This document shows positions 5,522 to 22,330 of a stretch of DNA of 64,000 nt, in pieces. The notes beneath the pieces were generated by a model. It had not been told where the DNA came from. It saw only the letters and a list, made by a program, of their open reading frames with translations, and did not search any database. The DNA comes from Archangium gephyra. GTDB lineage: Bacteria > Myxococcota > Myxococcia > Myxococcales > Myxococcaceae. Location: the NCBI RefSeq assembly GCF_001027285.1, contig NZ_CP011509.1:3914501-3978500 (forward strand), given 5' to 3'. Numbering within the stretch: the first letter of the stretch is position 1; the number at the start of each line of letters is the position of its first letter. Position numbers and translations under genes: made by a program.

Positions 5522-5529
5522 ACAAGAAC

Positions 5530-5609
5530 GGCCGGGACACACGCGGAGGTGCGCTACCGTTGCTTCCTTCCGGACCTGGCGGGGTTCACGTCCCCACGTT
5601 GTCCCGACC
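5530..5609 (-). ncRNA. ffs: Signal recognition particle RNA, small bacterial (4.5S) type
   Basis: The minus strand contains the SRP RNA apical core CAGGTCCGGAAGGAAGCA within a long imperfect hairpin. The ends pair (GTCGGGAC near 5608 with GTCCCGGC near 5531). The size of about 80-100 nt fits the short Alu-less bacterial form. The RNA binds Ffh and FtsY for co-translational membrane targeting. A strong terminator starts 9 nt downstream and a tRNA-Ser gene lies ~30 nt upstream. Exact ends are estimated from the base pairing. Confidence 0.9.
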
Positions 5610-5638
5610 ACAAGCTCTTGGTACTGCAAAACAGACTA

Positions 5639-5725
5639 CGGAGAGGGTGGGATTCGAACCCACGATACCCTTTCAGATATACACGCGTTCCAGGCGTGCG
5701 CCTTCAACCGCTCGGCCACCTCTCC
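5639..5725 (-). tRNA. tRNA-Ser(GGA)
   Basis: An 87-nt class II tRNA. Acceptor stem GGAGAGG/CCTCTCC, discriminator G, D arm GCCGAGCGGTTGAAGGC, anticodon stem CACGC/GCGTG with loop CTGGAAC (anticodon GGA), a long variable arm as in serine tRNAs, and T arm with GGTTCGAATCC. It reads UCC/UCU. CCA is not encoded. It lies between tRNA-Ser(CGA) and the SRP RNA gene on the same strand. Confidence 0.97.
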
Positions 5726-5738
5726 ATGAGACACTCTG

Positions 5739-5825
5739 CGGAGAGCGTAGGATTCGAACCTACGATACCGTTCCCGGTATGCCTGATTTCGAGTCAGGTG
5801 CCTTCGACCACTCGGCCAGCTCTCC
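5739..5825 (-). tRNA. tRNA-Ser(CGA)
   Basis: An 87-nt class II tRNA with acceptor GGAGAGC/GCTCTCC, discriminator G, anticodon stem CCTGA/TCAGG and loop CTCGAAA (anticodon CGA), a long variable arm and a canonical GGTTCGAATCC T loop. It reads UCG. CCA is not encoded. Its 5' end is 5 nt from the tadA stop codon, so processing out of a joint tadA transcript is likely. Confidence 0.97.
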
Positions 5826-5830
5826 AATAT

Positions 5831-6298
5831 TCACTTGTCGCGTTTCTTCTCGCGCAGTCGCTCGAAGAAATCCTTCAGCATCTGGCGGCTGTCGTCCGCC
5901 AATATTCCACTCATCACCTGGAGCCGGTGGTTGTGCCGGGGCTCCTCGGCGAGGTTGTAGAGCGAGCCAACGGCTCCGGCTTTCGGGTCCATCGTTCCGA
6001 AAACCAGCCGCGTGACCCTCGACTGGACCAGCGCTCCGGCGCACATGGCACACGGCTCCAGCGTCACATACAGGGTGACACCCGTGAGCCGCCATGCTCC
6101 TAGCGCCTTGGCTGCTGCGTCCAGCGCGAAGATCTCCGCGTGGGCCAGGGGATTCCGGTCGATTTCCCTGCGATTGAAGCCGACGCCGATGACCTTGCCA
6201 TCGTGTACGGCTACCGCACCCACAGGGACTTCCCCGAGTCCAGCGGCTTCCCGCGCGAGCGCGAGTGCCTGCTGCATGAAAGCTTCGTCCAGACTCAT
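5831..6298 (-). CDS. tadA: tRNA-specific adenosine deaminase TadA
   Basis: A 155-residue protein of the cytidine-deaminase fold. The zinc-binding catalytic residues are H53-A54-E55 (PLAHAEIFAL) and P82-C83...C86 (EPCAMCAGAL). TadA converts A34 of tRNA-Arg(ACG) to inosine so that it can read CGU, CGC and CGA. The gene sits 24 nt downstream of a tRNA-Arg(ACG) gene, its canonical substrate, on the same strand. The ATG at 6298 leads into MSLDEAFMQQALALA, the normal N-terminus. The adjacent serine tRNA genes suggest one mixed tRNA-mRNA transcript. Confidence 0.96.
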   Translation of the reverse strand: MSLDEAFMQQALALAREAAGLGEVPVGAVAVHDGKVIGVGFNRREIDRNPLAHAEIFALDAAAKALGAWRLTGVTLYVTLEPCAMCAGALVQSRVTRLVFGTMDPKAGAVGSLYNLAEEPRHNHRLQVMSGILADDSRQMLKDFFERLREKKRDK

Positions 6299-6322
6299 GA
6301 GGGAATGAGACGGGGGGAAGGT

Positions 6323-6399
6323 TGGCGCTCCCTGGAGGATTCGAACCTCCGGCCTTCGGATTCGTAGTCCGACGCTCTATCCAGCTGAGCTAAGGGAGC
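6323..6399 (-). tRNA. tRNA-Arg(ACG), CCA encoded
   Basis: A 77-nt class I tRNA: acceptor GCTCCCT/AGGGAGC, discriminator G followed by encoded CCA, D arm AGCTCAGCTGGATAGAGC, anticodon stem TCGGA/TCCGA with loop CTACGAA (anticodon ACG), and a GGTTCGAATCC T arm. A34 is the TadA target, and tadA lies immediately downstream. Confidence 0.97.
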
Positions 6400-6421
6400 T
6401 TGCCGTTTCCTTCACCGCATC

Positions 6422-6471
6422 TACCACAACCGCGACCTCTGTACCACAACCACTTTCGCGCTACCACAACC
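6422..6471. repeat. Three copies of TACCACAACC at exact 20-bp spacing between tRNA genes
   Basis: TACCACAACC occurs at 6422-6431, 6442-6451 and 6462-6471, each start exactly 20 bp after the previous one. The intervening 10 bp differ (CGCGACCTCT GT, ACTTTCGCG C). A partial fourth copy (TACCACAAGA) begins at 6597, in the next tRNA spacer. On the transcribed strand the unit reads GGTTGTGGTA. Function unknown. Confidence 0.85.
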
Positions 6472-6479
6472 AAGATGAG

Positions 6480-6569
6480 TGGCGGAGAGAGAGGGATTCG
6501 AACCCTCGATACCCTTTCGAGTATGCAGGTTTAGCAAACCTGTGCCTTCAGCCTCTCGGCCATCTCTCC
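6480..6569 (-). tRNA. tRNA-Ser(GCT), CCA encoded
   Basis: A 90-nt class II tRNA: acceptor GGAGAGA/TCTCTCC, discriminator G and encoded CCA, anticodon stem CAGGT/ACCTG with loop TTGCTAA (anticodon GCT), a long variable arm and a GGTTCGAATCC T arm. It reads AGC/AGU. The 3' end abuts the spacer with the 20-bp-phased TACCACAACC repeats. Confidence 0.97.
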
Positions 6570-6612
6570 ACTGCCTTTACTGTCAAAGAACCGCATACCA
6601 CAAGAACAAAAA

Positions 6613-6699
6613 CGGAGGAGGTAGGATTCGAACCTACGGGAAGCTTGCGCCACCTGCGGTTTTCAAGACCGCTGCCTTCAGCCGCTCGGCCACTCCTCC
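6613..6699 (-). tRNA. tRNA-Ser(TGA)
   Basis: An 87-nt class II tRNA: acceptor GGAGGAG/CTCCTCC, discriminator G, anticodon stem GCGGT/ACCGC with loop CTTGAAA (anticodon TGA), a long variable arm and a GGTTCGAATCC T arm. It reads UCA and by wobble other UCN codons. CCA is not encoded. It is the first tRNA downstream of serS (107-nt gap, same strand). Confidence 0.97.
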
Positions 6700-15783: not shown

Positions 15784-18750
15784 TCAGGGGAGGGGCACCG
15801 CGATGCGGGTCCCCTCGCCCTGTTTGCTGGTTCCTCCCGGGCGCGTCCGCTCCAGCACCCGGGCCAGGGTGTCGCGCGACTCCGCCACCAGGGGGTGTCC
15901 GGGCCCCAGTGCCTTCTCGCGGAGGGCCAGTGCCCGCTCATACCTCGCCCGGGCCTCGTCGTACTTCCCCAGGTCCCGCAGCACGTTGCCCAGGCCATTG
16001 AGCGAGATGGCGAGGTCGGGGTGCCCGGGCTCCAGCGCCTTCTCCTGGATGGCCAGCGCGCGTTGGTGCCGTGCCCGCGCCTCGCCGGGCTTCTTCATGA
16101 GCCGCAGCACCTCACCCAGATCATTGAGCGTGCTGGCCACGTCGGGATGGTCCGCTCCCAATACCTTCTCGCGCAGGGCCAGCGCGCGCTCGAGCCGCCG
16201 CCGCGCCTCCTCGTACCGGCCCAATCCCTTGAGCGCACTGCCCAGGTTGTTGAGGGTGTTGGCGACGTCGGGATGCCCCGGCTTCAGCAGTTTCTCGCGC
16301 AGGGCCAGCGCGTCCTCGAGCAGCCTCAGCGACTCCTCGTAGCGGCCCAGGTCATTGAGCGCGACGGCCAGGTTGTTGAGGGAGATGGCCACATCGGGAT
16401 GCTCGAGCCCCAGGGCGCTCTTGCGGATGGCCAGTGCGTGTTCGTACAGCTCCCGGGCCTCTTCGTGCTTGCCCAGCTGCCCGAGTGCCGTGCCCAGGTT
16501 GCTGTAGGAGTTGGCGACGAGCGGGTTGTCCGGTCCCAGCGTCTTGCGCCGGAGGTTGAGCGCCTGCTCGTACGCGGCCCGTGCCTCCTCGTACTTGCCC
16601 AGCGCCCCGAGCGCGACGCCCAGGTTGTTGAGCGAGGCGATCACCTTCGGATGCTCGGGGCCCAGCACCTCGCGCCGGAGCTCCAGCACGCGCTCGTACG
16701 CGGCCCGGGCCTCCTCGTAGCGGCCCATCTCCTGGAACGCGATGGCCTGATCATTGAGCGAGTCCGCGCGTGTCTCGTCGTCATCCGCCACCTCCACGAC
16801 GGACTCCATGGCCAGCGTCAGTCCCTGCGCCTCCTGGTAGCGCGCCTGCCTCCACCCCACCTCCCGGAAGAGCAACGTCCAGGCCCTGGCCACCATCACC
16901 AGGTCCTTGCTCTTCGCGGCCACGGTGATGGCCCGCCGCGCCAGGGCCTCCGCGCCGGCGTAATCCCCGTCCATGTCCTTGAGCGAGGCGACCTCGTACA
17001 GCGTCTGCGCCACGAGCGGCCCGTAGCCCACCTGCTCCACCCGCGGCAGCAGCGCCTCGCCGGGCGCCAGCGCCTCGCGGTACCGGCCGGCCATTCGCAG
17101 CGTGGCCAGCCGATCCACCTGGGCCCGCAGCGCCTCCACCGTGGTGCGCACCGAGGGCTCCTCCGGGAGGGGCACGGTGGCCGTCAGCGCCTTGGCATCC
17201 GCGCAGGCGCTCAGCGGCGGCAGTGACTGCACCACCTGCACGGCCTTGGACAGGTTGTCCCGGTCAGGACCGCGGGCGAACAGCTCCGTCAGCTCCCGCA
17301 GCTGGGCGCGCCGCCGCTCCAGGCAGTCCACCTTCAGCACGTCGAGCTTTCCGGGCGACGGAGCCTGGAGGGCCTCGCACGCCTCGGTCCGCATCCGCAC
17401 CCACGTCCCCGTGTAGCCGTCGAGCAGTGAGGCCGCGCGTTGGAAGGTGTCCTGGGCATACGGCAGCTGGGTGCCCAGGAAGGCCCGCTTCATCCGCGCC
17501 TTCACCGTCCCGTCCCAGGTGCCGGTGAGCCTGCGCTCCAGGCCCGTGCACCCCGACTCCTGCTCCCGGTGCAGCAGCCCGCTCCAGAGCGTCAGGCCCG
17601 CCATGCCCGCCACCAGCGCCACCAGGGCCACCTTGCGCCGCCGGGCCCGCCGCCGCGCATCGAGGTCCACCTCCAGCTCCGCGACCAGCTTCCGCATGGA
17701 AGCGGGGCGTTGCGCCGCGTCCGCCCGCAGGCCCTGCACCAACGTGCGCTCCACCCACGCGGGCACGTCCGTGGTGTCGGGAGGCGGCTTCACCCGGCCC
17801 TCGAGCTGGGCCTCGGTGGACTCGGCCTGGGTGGCGCCGGAGAAGGGGTGCTGCCGGTACAGCGCCTCGTAGAGGGCCACGCAGAAGGCGAACAGATCGC
17901 TTCGCGCATCGGCCGGGCCGGCCCGCAGCAGCTCGGGGGCCATGTAGCGGGGCGTGCCCAGCAGCGTGCCCTGCAGGGTGAGAGGGCTGTCCAGGGCGCC
18001 CGGCGGCAGGGGCAGGGGCGTGTTCGAGGACACCTCGGGCGGCGAGGAGCCGGCACGCGCCAGGCCGAAGTCCGTCACCCGCACCCGCCCGTCCTTGCCC
18101 ACCAGGACGTTCTCGGGCTTGAAGTCGCGGTGGACGAGGCCCGCCTCGTGCGCGGCCGCCAGCCCGCGCCCCGCCTCCAGGTATACGTCCAGCGTCTCCC
18201 GCCAGGTGCGCGGGGCCTGGTCACTCCAGCGCCGTAGCGTCTGCCCCTCCACCATCTCCATGGCGATGAAGATGGCGCCGCCCTCCAGGGTGCCCACGTC
18301 GTAGATGGCCACCACGTTGGGGTGCGAGAGGCGCGCCATGGCCTGGGCCTCGCGCAGCATGCGCGTCTCCAGGTCGTGCTGGGACAGGCCAGGGTCCCAA
18401 TCGCGGCGCAGCAGCTTGAGGGCCACGCGCCGGTCGAGCCGCGAGTCATAGGCGGCCACCACCTCGCCCATGCCGCCCTGGCCCAGCCGGTTGAGCACCG
18501 TGTAGCGGCCCGCCAGAGTCTGTCCCGGGGCGGTGGAGACGGGTCCGCTCCGCGGTGTCCCGGCGGGGGAAGGGCCCGTGGGGAACAGCGGCGTGGCGAG
18601 GCTGCGGACCTGGGTGGCGGCCTCTCCCAGCGCGTCCGCGTACAGCAGCGTCTGGGCGGGTGGAGAGGACAGGGAGCGCACCACCGTGGCGTCCACCTCC
18701 GGTGCGCCGGTGCCCGAGTCCCCCTTGTCCCGTGGCCCGTTCTCGCTCAT
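15784..18750 (-). CDS. Serine/threonine protein kinase with C-terminal kinesin-light-chain-type TPRs
   Basis: A 988-residue eukaryotic-type kinase. The kinase domain (about residues 80-350) has the glycine loop LGQGGMGEVVAAYD, catalytic lysine in VALKLL, catalytic loop HRDFKPENVL, DFGLAR and the activation/P+1 segment GTPRYMAPELL, so it should be active. A membrane helix (VALVALVAGMAGLTLWSGLL, ~380-400) separates it from a ~580-residue outer part ending in 42-residue TPRs (LGPEHPDVASSLNNLG type). This architecture is abundant in myxobacteria. The ligand and targets are unknown. A perfect 8-bp inverted repeat lies 20 bp upstream of the ATG. Confidence 0.93.
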   Translation of the reverse strand: MSENGPRDKGDSGTGAPEVDATVVRSLSSPPAQTLLYADALGEAATQVRSLATPLFPTGPSPAGTPRSGPVSTAPGQTLAGRYTVLNRLGQGGMGEVVAAYDSRLDRRVALKLLRRDWDPGLSQHDLETRMLREAQAMARLSHPNVVAIYDVGTLEGGAIFIAMEMVEGQTLRRWSDQAPRTWRETLDVYLEAGRGLAAAHEAGLVHRDFKPENVLVGKDGRVRVTDFGLARAGSSPPEVSSNTPLPLPPGALDSPLTLQGTLLGTPRYMAPELLRAGPADARSDLFAFCVALYEALYRQHPFSGATQAESTEAQLEGRVKPPPDTTDVPAWVERTLVQGLRADAAQRPASMRKLVAELEVDLDARRRARRRKVALVALVAGMAGLTLWSGLLHREQESGCTGLERRLTGTWDGTVKARMKRAFLGTQLPYAQDTFQRAASLLDGYTGTWVRMRTEACEALQAPSPGKLDVLKVDCLERRRAQLRELTELFARGPDRDNLSKAVQVVQSLPPLSACADAKALTATVPLPEEPSVRTTVEALRAQVDRLATLRMAGRYREALAPGEALLPRVEQVGYGPLVAQTLYEVASLKDMDGDYAGAEALARRAITVAAKSKDLVMVARAWTLLFREVGWRQARYQEAQGLTLAMESVVEVADDDETRADSLNDQAIAFQEMGRYEEARAAYERVLELRREVLGPEHPKVIASLNNLGVALGALGKYEEARAAYEQALNLRRKTLGPDNPLVANSYSNLGTALGQLGKHEEARELYEHALAIRKSALGLEHPDVAISLNNLAVALNDLGRYEESLRLLEDALALREKLLKPGHPDVANTLNNLGSALKGLGRYEEARRRLERALALREKVLGADHPDVASTLNDLGEVLRLMKKPGEARARHQRALAIQEKALEPGHPDLAISLNGLGNVLRDLGKYDEARARYERALALREKALGPGHPLVAESRDTLARVLERTRPGGTSKQGEGTRIAVPLP
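15892..16665 (-). repeat. Six in-frame 126-bp (42-codon) TPR repeats plus a partial copy
   Basis: Six full 42-residue units run from LGPEHPKVIAS (starting at 16665) to the LGPGHPLVAES partial copy at 15892-15909. Each has the form L-G-x-x-H-P-x-V-A...LNNLG...LGKYEEAR...YE.AL.LR.K. The DNA similarity between units makes this a likely site for recombination or assembly collapse. Confidence 0.9.
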
Positions 18751-20625: not shown

Positions 20626-21570
20626 ATGAATCAGGATCCTTCCAAGAGACCGGCCGTCGTCATCACCGGCATCAGCGGCAACCTGGGCCGTGCCCTCGCC
20701 AAGGTGCTGCACAAGCACGAGCGCATCATCGGTATCGATCGGCGTCCCTTCGTGGGCCGGCCGAAGGACATCGAGATGCACCAGTTGGATCTGCGCAAGA
20801 AGAAGGCGGAGGACGTCTTCCGCAAGAACGACATCCGCGCCGTCATCCACATGGGCATCATGCATGACCCGCGCATGAGCGAGGAGGAGCACCACTCCTT
20901 CAACGTGGTGGGCACCACGCGCCTGCTCGAGTACTGCGCCCGCTACAAGGTGCCCAAGGTGGTGGTCCTCTCCTCCGCCAACGTCTACGGCCCCAGCCCG
21001 GACAACTCCAACTTCCTCACCGAGGACGCGCCGCTCATGGCGGCCAGCCGCTTCTCGGGCGTGCGCGATCTCATCGAAGTGGACATGCTGGCGCACAGCT
21101 TCTTCTGGAAGCACCCCCACATCCAGACGGTCATCCTCCGGCCCGTCCACATCGTGGGGCCCACCATCAAGAACGCGCCCAGCAACTACCTGCGCCTGCG
21201 CCGCCCGTGGGTGCTGGCGGGGTTCGACCCCATGGTGCAGCTCATCCACGTGGACGACGTGGCGCGCGCCATGGTGGAGGCCGCCCTGCGCCCCGAGCCC
21301 AAGGGCGTCTACAACGTGGTGGGCCCCGGCGAGGTGCCCCTGTCCGCCATCCACCGCGAGCTGGGCCACAGCGCCGTCCCCGTGCCCCACCCCGTGGCCC
21401 GGCCCCTGCTGGGCCTCCTCTTCAAGTACCGGCTCGCCAACTTCCCCCCGCCCGAGCTCGACCACATCCAGTTCCTCTGCAACGTGGACGGCTCGCGCTG
21501 GCGCCAGGACGTGGACTGGACGCCGCGCTTCTCCATGCGCGACACCATCCGCTCCGTCGTCGGCGACTAA
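20626..21570 (+). CDS. Extended SDR (NAD-dependent epimerase/dehydratase-like) protein with altered active site
   Basis: A 314-residue Rossmann protein with TGISGNLG (G15xxG18xxG21) for NAD(P) binding and LSSANVYGPSP, where extended SDRs carry the catalytic Ser/Thr. At the usual YxxxK site the sequence is F143-S-G-V-R147, so both catalytic Tyr and Lys look replaced. This suggests a non-redox or regulatory role, or a displaced active site. The cofactor fold and downstream VYNVVGPGEVPLS region remain typical of epimerase-like proteins. It is probably co-transcribed with the acyltransferase gene. Family assignment is firm, substrate unknown. Confidence 0.85.
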   Translation: MNQDPSKRPAVVITGISGNLGRALAKVLHKHERIIGIDRRPFVGRPKDIEMHQLDLRKKKAEDVFRKNDIRAVIHMGIMHDPRMSEEEHHSFNVVGTTRLLEYCARYKVPKVVVLSSANVYGPSPDNSNFLTEDAPLMAASRFSGVRDLIEVDMLAHSFFWKHPHIQTVILRPVHIVGPTIKNAPSNYLRLRRPWVLAGFDPMVQLIHVDDVARAMVEAALRPEPKGVYNVVGPGEVPLSAIHRELGHSAVPVPHPVARPLLGLLFKYRLANFPPPELDHIQFLCNVDGSRWRQDVDWTPRFSMRDTIRSVVGD

Positions 21571-21589: not shown

Positions 21590-21607
21590 CCTGACGGCGC
21601 TGTCAGG
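21590..21607 (+). promoter_or_regulatory. Upstream palindrome 1, candidate activator binding site
   Basis: CCTGACGGCGCTGTCAGG is an 18-bp palindrome with one mismatch between its 8-bp arms, centred about 166 bp upstream of the predicted sigma-54 start at 21765. It nearly matches the second copy 46 bp downstream. The distance and dyad form fit an NtrC-type enhancer-binding protein site. Confidence 0.6.
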
Positions 21608-21635
21608 GGGGCAACTCGCGCTGCTCCGAGGGGAC

Positions 21636-21653
21636 CCTGACAGCCCTGTCAGG
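21636..21653 (+). promoter_or_regulatory. Upstream palindrome 2, candidate activator binding site
   Basis: CCTGACAGCCCTGTCAGG is a perfect 18-bp dyad (8-bp arms, 2-bp centre), centred about 120 bp upstream of the predicted sRNA start. Palindrome 1 differs from it at two positions. Two such sites upstream of a sigma-54 promoter are the classical enhancer layout. Confidence 0.65.
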
Positions 21654-21738
21654 CCCCCTGGCTTTTCCAGTACGGGCTTTTCCCCAGGGCCGGCGCGCAA
21701 CCCCTTGATTTCAGGTAGGCGGCGGGCGGCCGGGCGAC

Positions 21739-21754
21739 TGGCACCCGCATTGCT
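21739..21754 (+). promoter_or_regulatory. Sigma-54 (RpoN) -24/-12 promoter
   Basis: TGGCACCCGCATTGCT fits the consensus TGGCAC-N5-TTGCW. The GG (21740-21741) and GC (21752-21753) are separated by exactly 10 bp. The predicted transcription start is the G at 21765. It sits downstream of two palindromes and upstream of a three-hairpin RNA with a terminator. Confidence 0.8.
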
Positions 21755-21764
21755 CTAGTGACGG

Positions 21765-21890
21765 GACATGAAACGCGGTGGGGGCGGGCCCGCAGTGCCC
21801 CTCACCCCGTGACCTGTCCAGGGAGGTTCCATGGGGGAACCTCCGACGCCCACCATCTCGGCCGGCCCCGGGGTGGTGGGCGGTTTTTTT
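21765..21890 (+). ncRNA. Sigma-54-driven ~126-nt small RNA with three stem-loops; candidate Pxr-like sRNA
   Basis: The segment between promoter and terminator has no convincing ORF but folds well by eye. Stem-loop 1 spans 21773-21810 (G-rich arm with C-rich arm CCCCTCACCCCGT, one mismatch and one bulge). Stem-loop 2 is a perfect 9-bp stem (21822-21830 with 21836-21844). Stem-loop 3 is the terminator. Size, sigma-54 control and three-hairpin shape match what is known of Pxr, the sRNA that blocks fruiting-body development in Myxococcus xanthus until starvation. I could not align it to Pxr, so homology is inference. It overlaps by one base the 3' end of the convergent lipoprotein gene. Confidence 0.7.
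21847..21890 (+). terminator. Intrinsic terminator of the sigma-54 small RNA
   Basis: A 9-bp stem, CGCCCACCA (21847-21855) with TGGTGGGCG (21874-21882), encloses a GC-rich loop that can pair further and is followed by seven T (21884-21890). It is a textbook Rho-independent terminator on the plus strand, ending at the stop codon of the minus-strand lipoprotein gene. Confidence 0.9.
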
Positions 21891-22330
21891 CAGGGGAGCT
21901 CTCCGTCGAAGGGTCCCCCGGCCTGCTTCTCCAGCAGCCACTTGCCGTCGCGGTAGATGAACTCGGAGGTGACGGTGTCGCTCTGCTCGGACACCGAGGG
22001 CAGGCGCATCCACTTGATGCGGCTGGTGACGATGGCCCGCTCGCCCTCCTCGACGACCTCGACCTCTTCGATCTCGTAGTCGGTGATGGACAGGTCCCGC
22101 TCGTCCTGCTTCTCCCGGCGGCCCCTCTCGAAATCCTGACGGCGCTCGGGGACGATGAAGCGGGCGGCGATCCGGTAGTCCTTCCAGCGCACGCGCTGGT
22201 GGAAACTTTCCACCACGGGGCGAAGGGTCTCCAGGTCGGATTTCTTCTTCGTGTGGGCGCAGCCCGCACCGAGGGCGAAAACGAGCAGCACAGCAAGCAG
22301 GCGAATCACCCGGAGGACGCTAGCACCCAT
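21890..22330 (-). CDS. Small lipoprotein of unknown function
   Basis: A 146-residue protein with a lipoprotein signal peptide (lipobox LGAGC, Cys24) and a short basic linker (THKKK-like). The mature domain of about 115 residues has a mixed alpha/beta pattern (RPVVESFHQRVRWKDYRIAARFIV...SEFIYRDGKWLLEKQ) resembling NTF2-like/SnoaL folds by eye. The function is unknown. It is divergent from the large TPR gene (51 bp apart) and its stop touches the sRNA terminator. Confidence 0.8.
   Translation of the reverse strand: MGASVLRVIRLLAVLLVFALGAGCAHTKKKSDLETLRPVVESFHQRVRWKDYRIAARFIVPERRQDFERGRREKQDERDLSITDYEIEEVEVVEEGERAIVTSRIKWMRLPSVSEQSDTVTSEFIYRDGKWLLEKQAGGPFDGELP

Follow-up and report, generated by a model that had tools for sequence, protein, structure and literature searches.

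In this work, we identified a candidate sigma-54-dependent small RNA gene in Archangium gephyra, whose product belongs, by sequence and covariance-model comparison, to an RNA family that is absent from Rfam and has a two-hairpin core of ~80 nt; the RNA varies little across the Myxococcus family. Its most likely role is that of an RNA component in an envelope regulon under NtrC-type control. The gene lies within the window, the whole 64,000-nucleotide stretch of contig NZ_CP011509.1 that was analysed. Our analysis supports the original prediction of a small RNA gene that depends on sigma-54 and has enhancer sites of the NtrC type, but not its identification with the developmental RNA Pxr.

Two predicted enhancer sites, both unstranded palindromes of the form CCTGAC-N6-GTCAGG, are located at 21590-21607 (the distal dyad 1, CCTGACGGCGCTGTCAGG) and 21636-21653 (the proximal dyad 2, CCTGACAGCCCTGTCAGG, of the TGAC-N6-GTCA type found in homologous upstream regions). 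Their centres are 166 and 120 bp 5' of the predicted start near 21765, the spacing originally given for two 18-bp palindromes. The perfect dyad occurs three times in the 12.49-Mb genome, twice at the sRNA locus; with one mismatch it occurs at 27 places versus 61 for a reversed control, which is no enrichment, and therefore only the perfect form is special. An unstranded box, CAACCCCTTGATT (YAANNNNYTGATW), lies between the dyads and the promoter at 21698-21710 and is a candidate IHF-like site by its resemblance to the IHF consensus. The proposed -24/-12 element, TGGCACCCGCATTGCT, was confirmed on the + strand at 21739-21754, where it matches 10/10 scored consensus positions, and this exact string is unique in the genome.

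The 125-nt segment from 21765 to 21889 is predicted to fold into three stem-loops (-74.2 kcal/mol, z = -3.58; 0/200 shuffles equally stable). All three stem-loops announced by the original prediction are recovered in the predicted fold, but only the last two form the conserved core. On the + strand, a variable 5' leader with a lineage-specific hairpin (21765 to approximately 21818) is followed by core hairpin 1 (21822-21844; 9 bp, loop AUGGG at 21831-21835) and core hairpin 2 (21847-21882; apex CGGCCGGCCCCG at 21859-21870). Hairpin 2 serves as the terminator stem, and with the T7 tract at 21884-21890 (U7 in the RNA) it makes up the predicted intrinsic terminator. Outside the RNA, the upstream neighbour encodes an NAD-dependent epimerase/dehydratase family protein (20626-21570, + strand), and the convergent downstream neighbour encodes a 146-aa putative lipoprotein (21890-22330, - strand) that has no Pfam or NCBIfam match.

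Covariation supports the core structure. In alignment A2, made by sequence alone, 12/24 pairs had changes on both sides; in A3 (53 rows, including f2, f3 and a paralogue), which was aligned to the model's structure and is biased towards it, the figure was 18/24 pairs and 151 cells, compared with 0/500 shuffles as high and 8-18 cells when the partners were slid. These A3 changes affected 8/9 pairs of hairpin 1 and 10/15 pairs of hairpin 2, and pair 42-59 was poorly supported (31/52 unpaired). The 12-nt apex of hairpin 2 was invariant in 53/53 rows, most of which were found with a pattern holding the apex; the fairer count is 30/30 BLAST-found loci, which also carry it, together with the eight loci from f2, f3 and the paralogue. 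Loop 1 was likewise invariant in 53/53 rows at columns 17 (A), 18 (U) and 20 (G), and it reads AUNGG across most of the family. Conservation of the hairpins in related myxobacteria thus holds for the two core hairpins, but the 5' leader with the first hairpin is missing or short in many relatives.

Plain BLAST found the locus in 37/59 relatives, and a covariance model built from 30 sequences extended the family to 101/147 genomes of the class, including 95 of the 96 genomes listed from family f1; 26 genomes without a match lay outside that listing. The single f1 miss among the genomes listed, G088, is a 79% complete assembly; outside f1, one f2 genome and five f3 genomes among those listed carry the RNA. 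A scan of 195 genomes of the phylum made no additions to the tally of 101, and a plasmid collection gave no match to the model. Named carriers include Myxococcus xanthus (locus L139), Corallococcus, Pyxidicoccus, Hyalangium, Citreicoccus and Archangium. Among pattern matches in the named collection, 57/65 loci fit model R1; the remaining eight (L134, L136, L143, L148, L157, L158, L159 and L163, from four actinomycetes, a planctomycete and others) had no R1 match and were dropped as chance.

The genomic setting is conserved as well. The neighbours of the locus are 90-98% identical to those in A. violaceum Cb vi76 (L124). At the BLAST loci, the epimerase gene lies upstream on the same strand in 26/29, the gene for the 146-aa lipoprotein lies downstream in convergent orientation in 26/29, and 25/29 have both; at the named loci, many of which are cut by contig ends, the corresponding figures are 42/56, 49/56 and 37/56. 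Exceptions with long enough flanks are L021, L022, L026, L031, L122, L125, L131, L137, L138, L156 and L164, some of which are the same genomes.

In genus g23 (Myxococcus), to which the named Myxococcus and Pyxidicoccus loci correspond, 27/27 genomes carry 2-4 tandem units with a period near 71 nt. At the 11 named multi-unit loci, internal units have 4-6 T in the eight positions past the stem, with ends like GGATTCTTGTAGGG, and the final unit has 7 T, with the exception of L147, whose last unit escaped the scan. This pattern points to one long RNA with repeated units, and we infer that termination inside these loci is weak. Two further loci were noted. A diverged second copy of the RNA (L284, G012 C6:375221) lies elsewhere in its genome, behind an exact dyad of its own and a sigma-54 element scoring 10/10. 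L152, labelled Comamonas sp. KCTC 72670, has three tandem units and an 89% identical epimerase; its genome label looks wrong, and the source is probably a Myxococcus relative.

The promoter is conserved together with the RNA. The best upstream sigma-54 element scored at least 9/10 in 59 of 62 homologous loci, which comprise the 57 matching named loci except L115, whose sequence breaks off within the core (56 loci), and six others. Dyads and IHF-like boxes were counted at the 54 loci with at least 150 bp upstream, the other eight being shorter and left out. TGAC-N6-GTCA was exact in 38/54 upstream regions and matched at least 7/8 in 49/54, against 0.1 and 3.2 in shuffles, and the best IHF-like box within 70 bp before the promoter reached at least 8/9 at 33/54 loci, against 0.7 in shuffles. 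At the eight f2, f3 and paralogue loci, seven had a dyad of at least 7/8 and six a sigma-54 element of at least 9/10; L282 (f3) had neither a dyad nor a strong sigma-54 promoter. Distances from dyad to promoter cluster near 58, 69, 77, 90, 101, 112, 147 and 157 bp, resembling steps of ~11 bp, as counted in related sequences only.

Five of the 54 upstream regions lacked even a 7/8 dyad, and three of these belong to small-genome g20 relatives. In these three loci (L122, L137 and L156; genomes of 2.1-2.7 Mb), the RNA is kept and the dyads, compared by eye, are TTGCATTT(A/T)GCA-like, a change that is a possible switch of activator specificity. To judge from their isolate names, the three g20 genomes may be termite-gut MAGs.

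The dyad itself marks a small regulon, as judged from its distribution across genomes. CTGACA-N4-TGTCAG occurs at 44 forward-strand sites in 20 genomes, versus 1 for the reversed control, and is present in 19/20 of them (G015 has none). The sRNA locus accounts for nineteen of the 44 sites, spread over 17 genomes, and the other 25 lie elsewhere. Among 24 of these other sites, 13 have a sigma-54 element of at least 8/10 at 50-120 bp, versus 0.9 expected (0.037 per site; such a match arises by chance in 1.9% of random 71-bp windows), and the 25th (G001) also has a sigma-54 element. The remaining 11/24 sites have no such element; seven of them have the sequence CTGACACGCGTGTCAG or CTGACACACGTGTCAG (or its complement) and may have another role.

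The genes behind the 13 dyad-promoter sites fit a lipobox pattern in 12/13 cases (L323 fails), in a test for which some gene starts were picked by eye. Because the lipobox of L307 falls in a cysteine-rich stretch unlike a signal, lipoprotein-like starts were put at 11/13, as a raw count. The best case is the P0001 lipoprotein family, which has no Pfam or NCBIfam match and has relatives in 10/39 genomes: the dyad and promoter are kept in all five homologues of at least 47% identity, in G000, G001, G004, G018 and G008 (47-100% identity, query included). The pair is missing at three distant relatives, L213-L215 (30-36% identity), in a count that excludes L216-L219. Given the shared operator, the RNA is probably induced alongside genes for cell-surface lipoproteins. 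A lipoprotein family with no Pfam or NCBIfam match was seen behind the same dyad and sigma-54 promoter at L065, L209-L212, L320, L324, L326 and L328.

The activator of the regulon was sought among proteins matching PF00158. The genome of the window has 65 hits, of which 56 were compared (two proteins of region L274 and seven weak hits were excluded) with the enhancer-binding proteins of six small relatives that keep the RNA (30/35 strong hits). Two orthologue sets were common to both small clades among the proteins compared, L234 (6/6 genomes) and L224 (5/6). L234 is of the FHA type, and its DNA-binding helix differs in f3, where the dyad is kept. L224, a receiver-sigma54-Fis protein adjoining gspC at C1:9.21 Mb, had no orthologue among the enhancer-binding proteins compared from G139, a small genome with the RNA. 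Its helix reads GIAARTIYRKL in the genome of the window, G048 and G052, and GIATRTIYRKL in g20, where the dyad is changed; it reads GISPRTIYRKL in G043, where the dyad is kept, and the link between L224 and the dyad is therefore loose. No dyad with at most one mismatch was found in the L224 region, and the one dyad near an enhancer-binding protein (L226) is consistent with chance. By elimination, the activator may be the NtrC-type regulator next to gspC, which we offer as a lead only. Another possible activator is M. xanthus HsfA, which has six lipoprotein genes in its RNA-seq regulon (PMC9109919).

The original prediction took the locus for Pxr, or at least for an RNA of the same build that blocks fruiting until starvation. 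It is extremely improbable that the locus is Pxr or a diverged Pxr paralogue with this function. The two do share a sigma-54 promoter, a similar length, a myxobacterial distribution and, in this genome, three predicted stem-loops, and tandem pxr paralogues are known in Cystobacter (PMC5568312). However, judged by sequence and orthology, the locus is not Pxr. The Rfam Pxr model (RF01812, curated cut-off 80 bits), by which the original identification was to be checked, gave no match at cut-off in the window and scored the locus at 14.4 bits (E 3.8) in a local scan. The true pxr is found in the same genome, 1.2 Mb away at C1:2,696,414-2,697,442 (L046), as four copies in tandem that score 86.4, 81.6, 81.6 and 72.9 bits; all but the last exceed the cut-off. 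It lies downstream of an NtrC-family regulator gene (~2.69 Mb), which corresponds to the published pxrR-pxr arrangement, with pxr downstream of the NtrC-like gene pxrR (PMC5684412); the neighbours of the present locus are instead the epimerase and convergent lipoprotein genes. By eye, sigma-54-like elements precede those of the L046 pxr copies that were read. Other members of the genus carry up to five copies matching the Pxr model, which matches 34/59 relatives, 13 over its cut-off. Pxr itself holds back development under nutrient abundance and is processed to a short form; nothing in our analysis ties the locus to fruiting, the developmental role originally proposed for it.

The operators also differ. 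TGAC-N6-GTCA, even at 7/8, was found in 0/13 pxr upstream regions (13 of the 30 pxr loci were used). In a raw count, TTCA-N4-TGAA dyads, a candidate PxrR site, precede 11/13 pxr genes (L035-L047); this difference in dyad makes it likely that the two RNAs have different activators. Conversely, the model of the new family reached at most 17.5 bits in 19 pxr loci, versus 50-100 bits at its own members. Two of its weak matches coincide in part with the 3' ends of pxr copies (L055 1786-1855, 16.6 bits, E 0.014; L041 2187-2233, 10.2 bits, E 0.71), which would favour a relationship, but these may be terminator-like hairpins. Both RNAs are myxobacterial, short and stem-looped, with a sigma-54 promoter behind upstream dyads, an intrinsic terminator and tandem copies in some lineages; they differ in sequence family, locus, enhancer and neighbours. 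Moreover, in Cystobacter the tandem pxr paralogues come with promoters of their own (PMC5568312), whereas the tandem units of the new RNA appear to share one. Two candidates were rejected along the way: L034, one of three loci with a 1-mismatch match to the printed Pxr primer string, proved on reading not to be pxr, and ncS035 of Burkholderia, the best sub-threshold Rfam match (18.0 bits, cut-off 79, E 0.047), was judged a chance match.

Other explanations were weighed against the same conservation. It is highly unlikely that the locus is only a strong terminator for convergent genes preceded by a promoter-like sequence that arose by chance: it does lie between convergent genes, and hairpin 2 with its T tract is a + strand terminator, but hairpin 1, the loops, the -24/-12 element, the IHF-like box and the dyads are all conserved alongside, the unit is duplicated in tandem, and the second copy in G012 has its own exact dyad and 10/10 sigma-54 element. 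That the sigma-54 promoter drives a gene for a small protein is scarcely credible. Frames are formally open across the locus in this GC-rich DNA, so the statement that there is no ORF does not hold to the letter, and one frame is stop-free through the 80-nt core in 30/30 sequences. However, the substitution pattern is unlike that of a gene: variable core columns show no codon period (8/20, 11/21 and 11/20 by codon position), paired changes are compensatory, no start codon is kept in that frame (A2, by eye), and the frame is broken in f3, where the cores are 77-78 nt. More room must be left, though still as the doubtful alternative, for a protein sponge, in which the hairpin-2 apex, loop 1 or both would bind an RNA-binding protein and the tandem copies of Myxococcus would add sites per transcript. 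This would fit the invariance of the apex while the stems covary, the 2-4 head-to-tail units of g23 with a 71-nt period that leaves no room for promoters between them and with interrupted internal T tracts, and the report that hfq is missing from M. xanthus (PMC5684412). On the other side, one unit per locus in most genera is weak for titration, no protein partner is known, and a pairing seed would predict the invariance equally.

We therefore hold it reasonably probable, with some reserve, that the locus encodes a sigma-54-dependent trans-acting sRNA, ~125 nt in this genome with the ~80-nt two-hairpin core, which would serve as the post-transcriptional arm of an envelope regulon; that role is proposed because the RNA would share its activator with lipoprotein genes. 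In the proposed mechanism, an NtrC-type enhancer-binding protein would bind both dyads, IHF would bend the DNA between the dyads and the promoter, and sigma-54 RNA polymerase would start near 21765 and stop at 21884-21890. By analogy with QseF, IHF and GlmY in Escherichia coli (PMC6075780), an envelope signal may activate the NtrC-type protein and so turn on lipoproteins and RNA together. The RNA would then act on translation by pairing with mRNAs through its constant loops, CCGGCC in hairpin 2 and AUNGG in hairpin 1; alternatively, these loops may bind a protein, which their invariance would fit as well as pairing. A bolder version, which we think improbable, is that the Myxococcaceae have an unrecognised sigma-54 regulon of lipoprotein (envelope) genes, which is controlled by the gspC-linked NtrC-type regulator and has this ancient, nearly invariant sRNA as its RNA arm, and that the multi-unit form of Myxococcus titrates a protein or pairs with many mRNAs without Hfq. 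The absence of L224 from G139 and the overlap of weak model matches with two pxr copies lower our confidence in both the preferred explanation and its gspC-linked version.

Several known systems share parts of this design. The Qrr sRNAs of Vibrio, which are controlled by LuxO, combine sigma-54 with an NtrC-type activator, end in terminators, often occur in several copies and need Hfq. This last property sets them apart, as M. xanthus has no hfq (PMC5684412). GlmY with QseF/GlrR in Enterobacteriaceae is similar in having an NtrC-family regulator, several upstream sites, IHF, a sigma-54 promoter and an sRNA under envelope control; it differs in that the QseF/GlrR UAS is TGT-N12-ACA, compared with GACA-N4-TGTC here, and in that glmY adjoins the operon of its own regulator (both from PMC6075780). 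Rfam scans gave no match to GlmY/GlmZ or Qrr, either in the window at the gathering score or in the local scan up to E 10. The NmpR and Nla28 regulons of M. xanthus also rely on NtrC-type activators that use paired sites in front of sigma-54 promoters, and their sites, GCGCA-N5-TGCGC for NmpR (PMC11841059) and CT(C/G)CG(C/G)AG for Nla28 (PMC9765219), are not TGACA-N4-TGTCA. More generally, earlier work has linked sigma-54 with the cell exterior (PMC3162934).

No description of the present RNA was found in the literature consulted; the survey of M. xanthus noncoding RNAs by Whitworth and Swain (2020), as cited in PMC8538405, may include the copy from M. xanthus, and sRNAs without names are mentioned in a predation transcriptome (PMC9548883). 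Pxr is the regulatory RNA discussed in the myxobacterial papers cited here, and the present RNA would be a second one. It occurs in M. xanthus, a species with routine genetics, and it is accompanied by a rare operator of its own and by a few lipoprotein-like genes that would be co-regulated with it, so that an envelope sRNA circuit operating without Hfq would be directly testable.

Two other features of the window were noted. Five tRNA genes and a bacterial small SRP RNA are clustered on the - strand at 5522-6699 (Rfam). Also on the - strand, positions 15784-18750 encode a 988-aa protein that, judged by eye from its translation, has a kinase-like N-terminal part and tetratricopeptide-like repeats.
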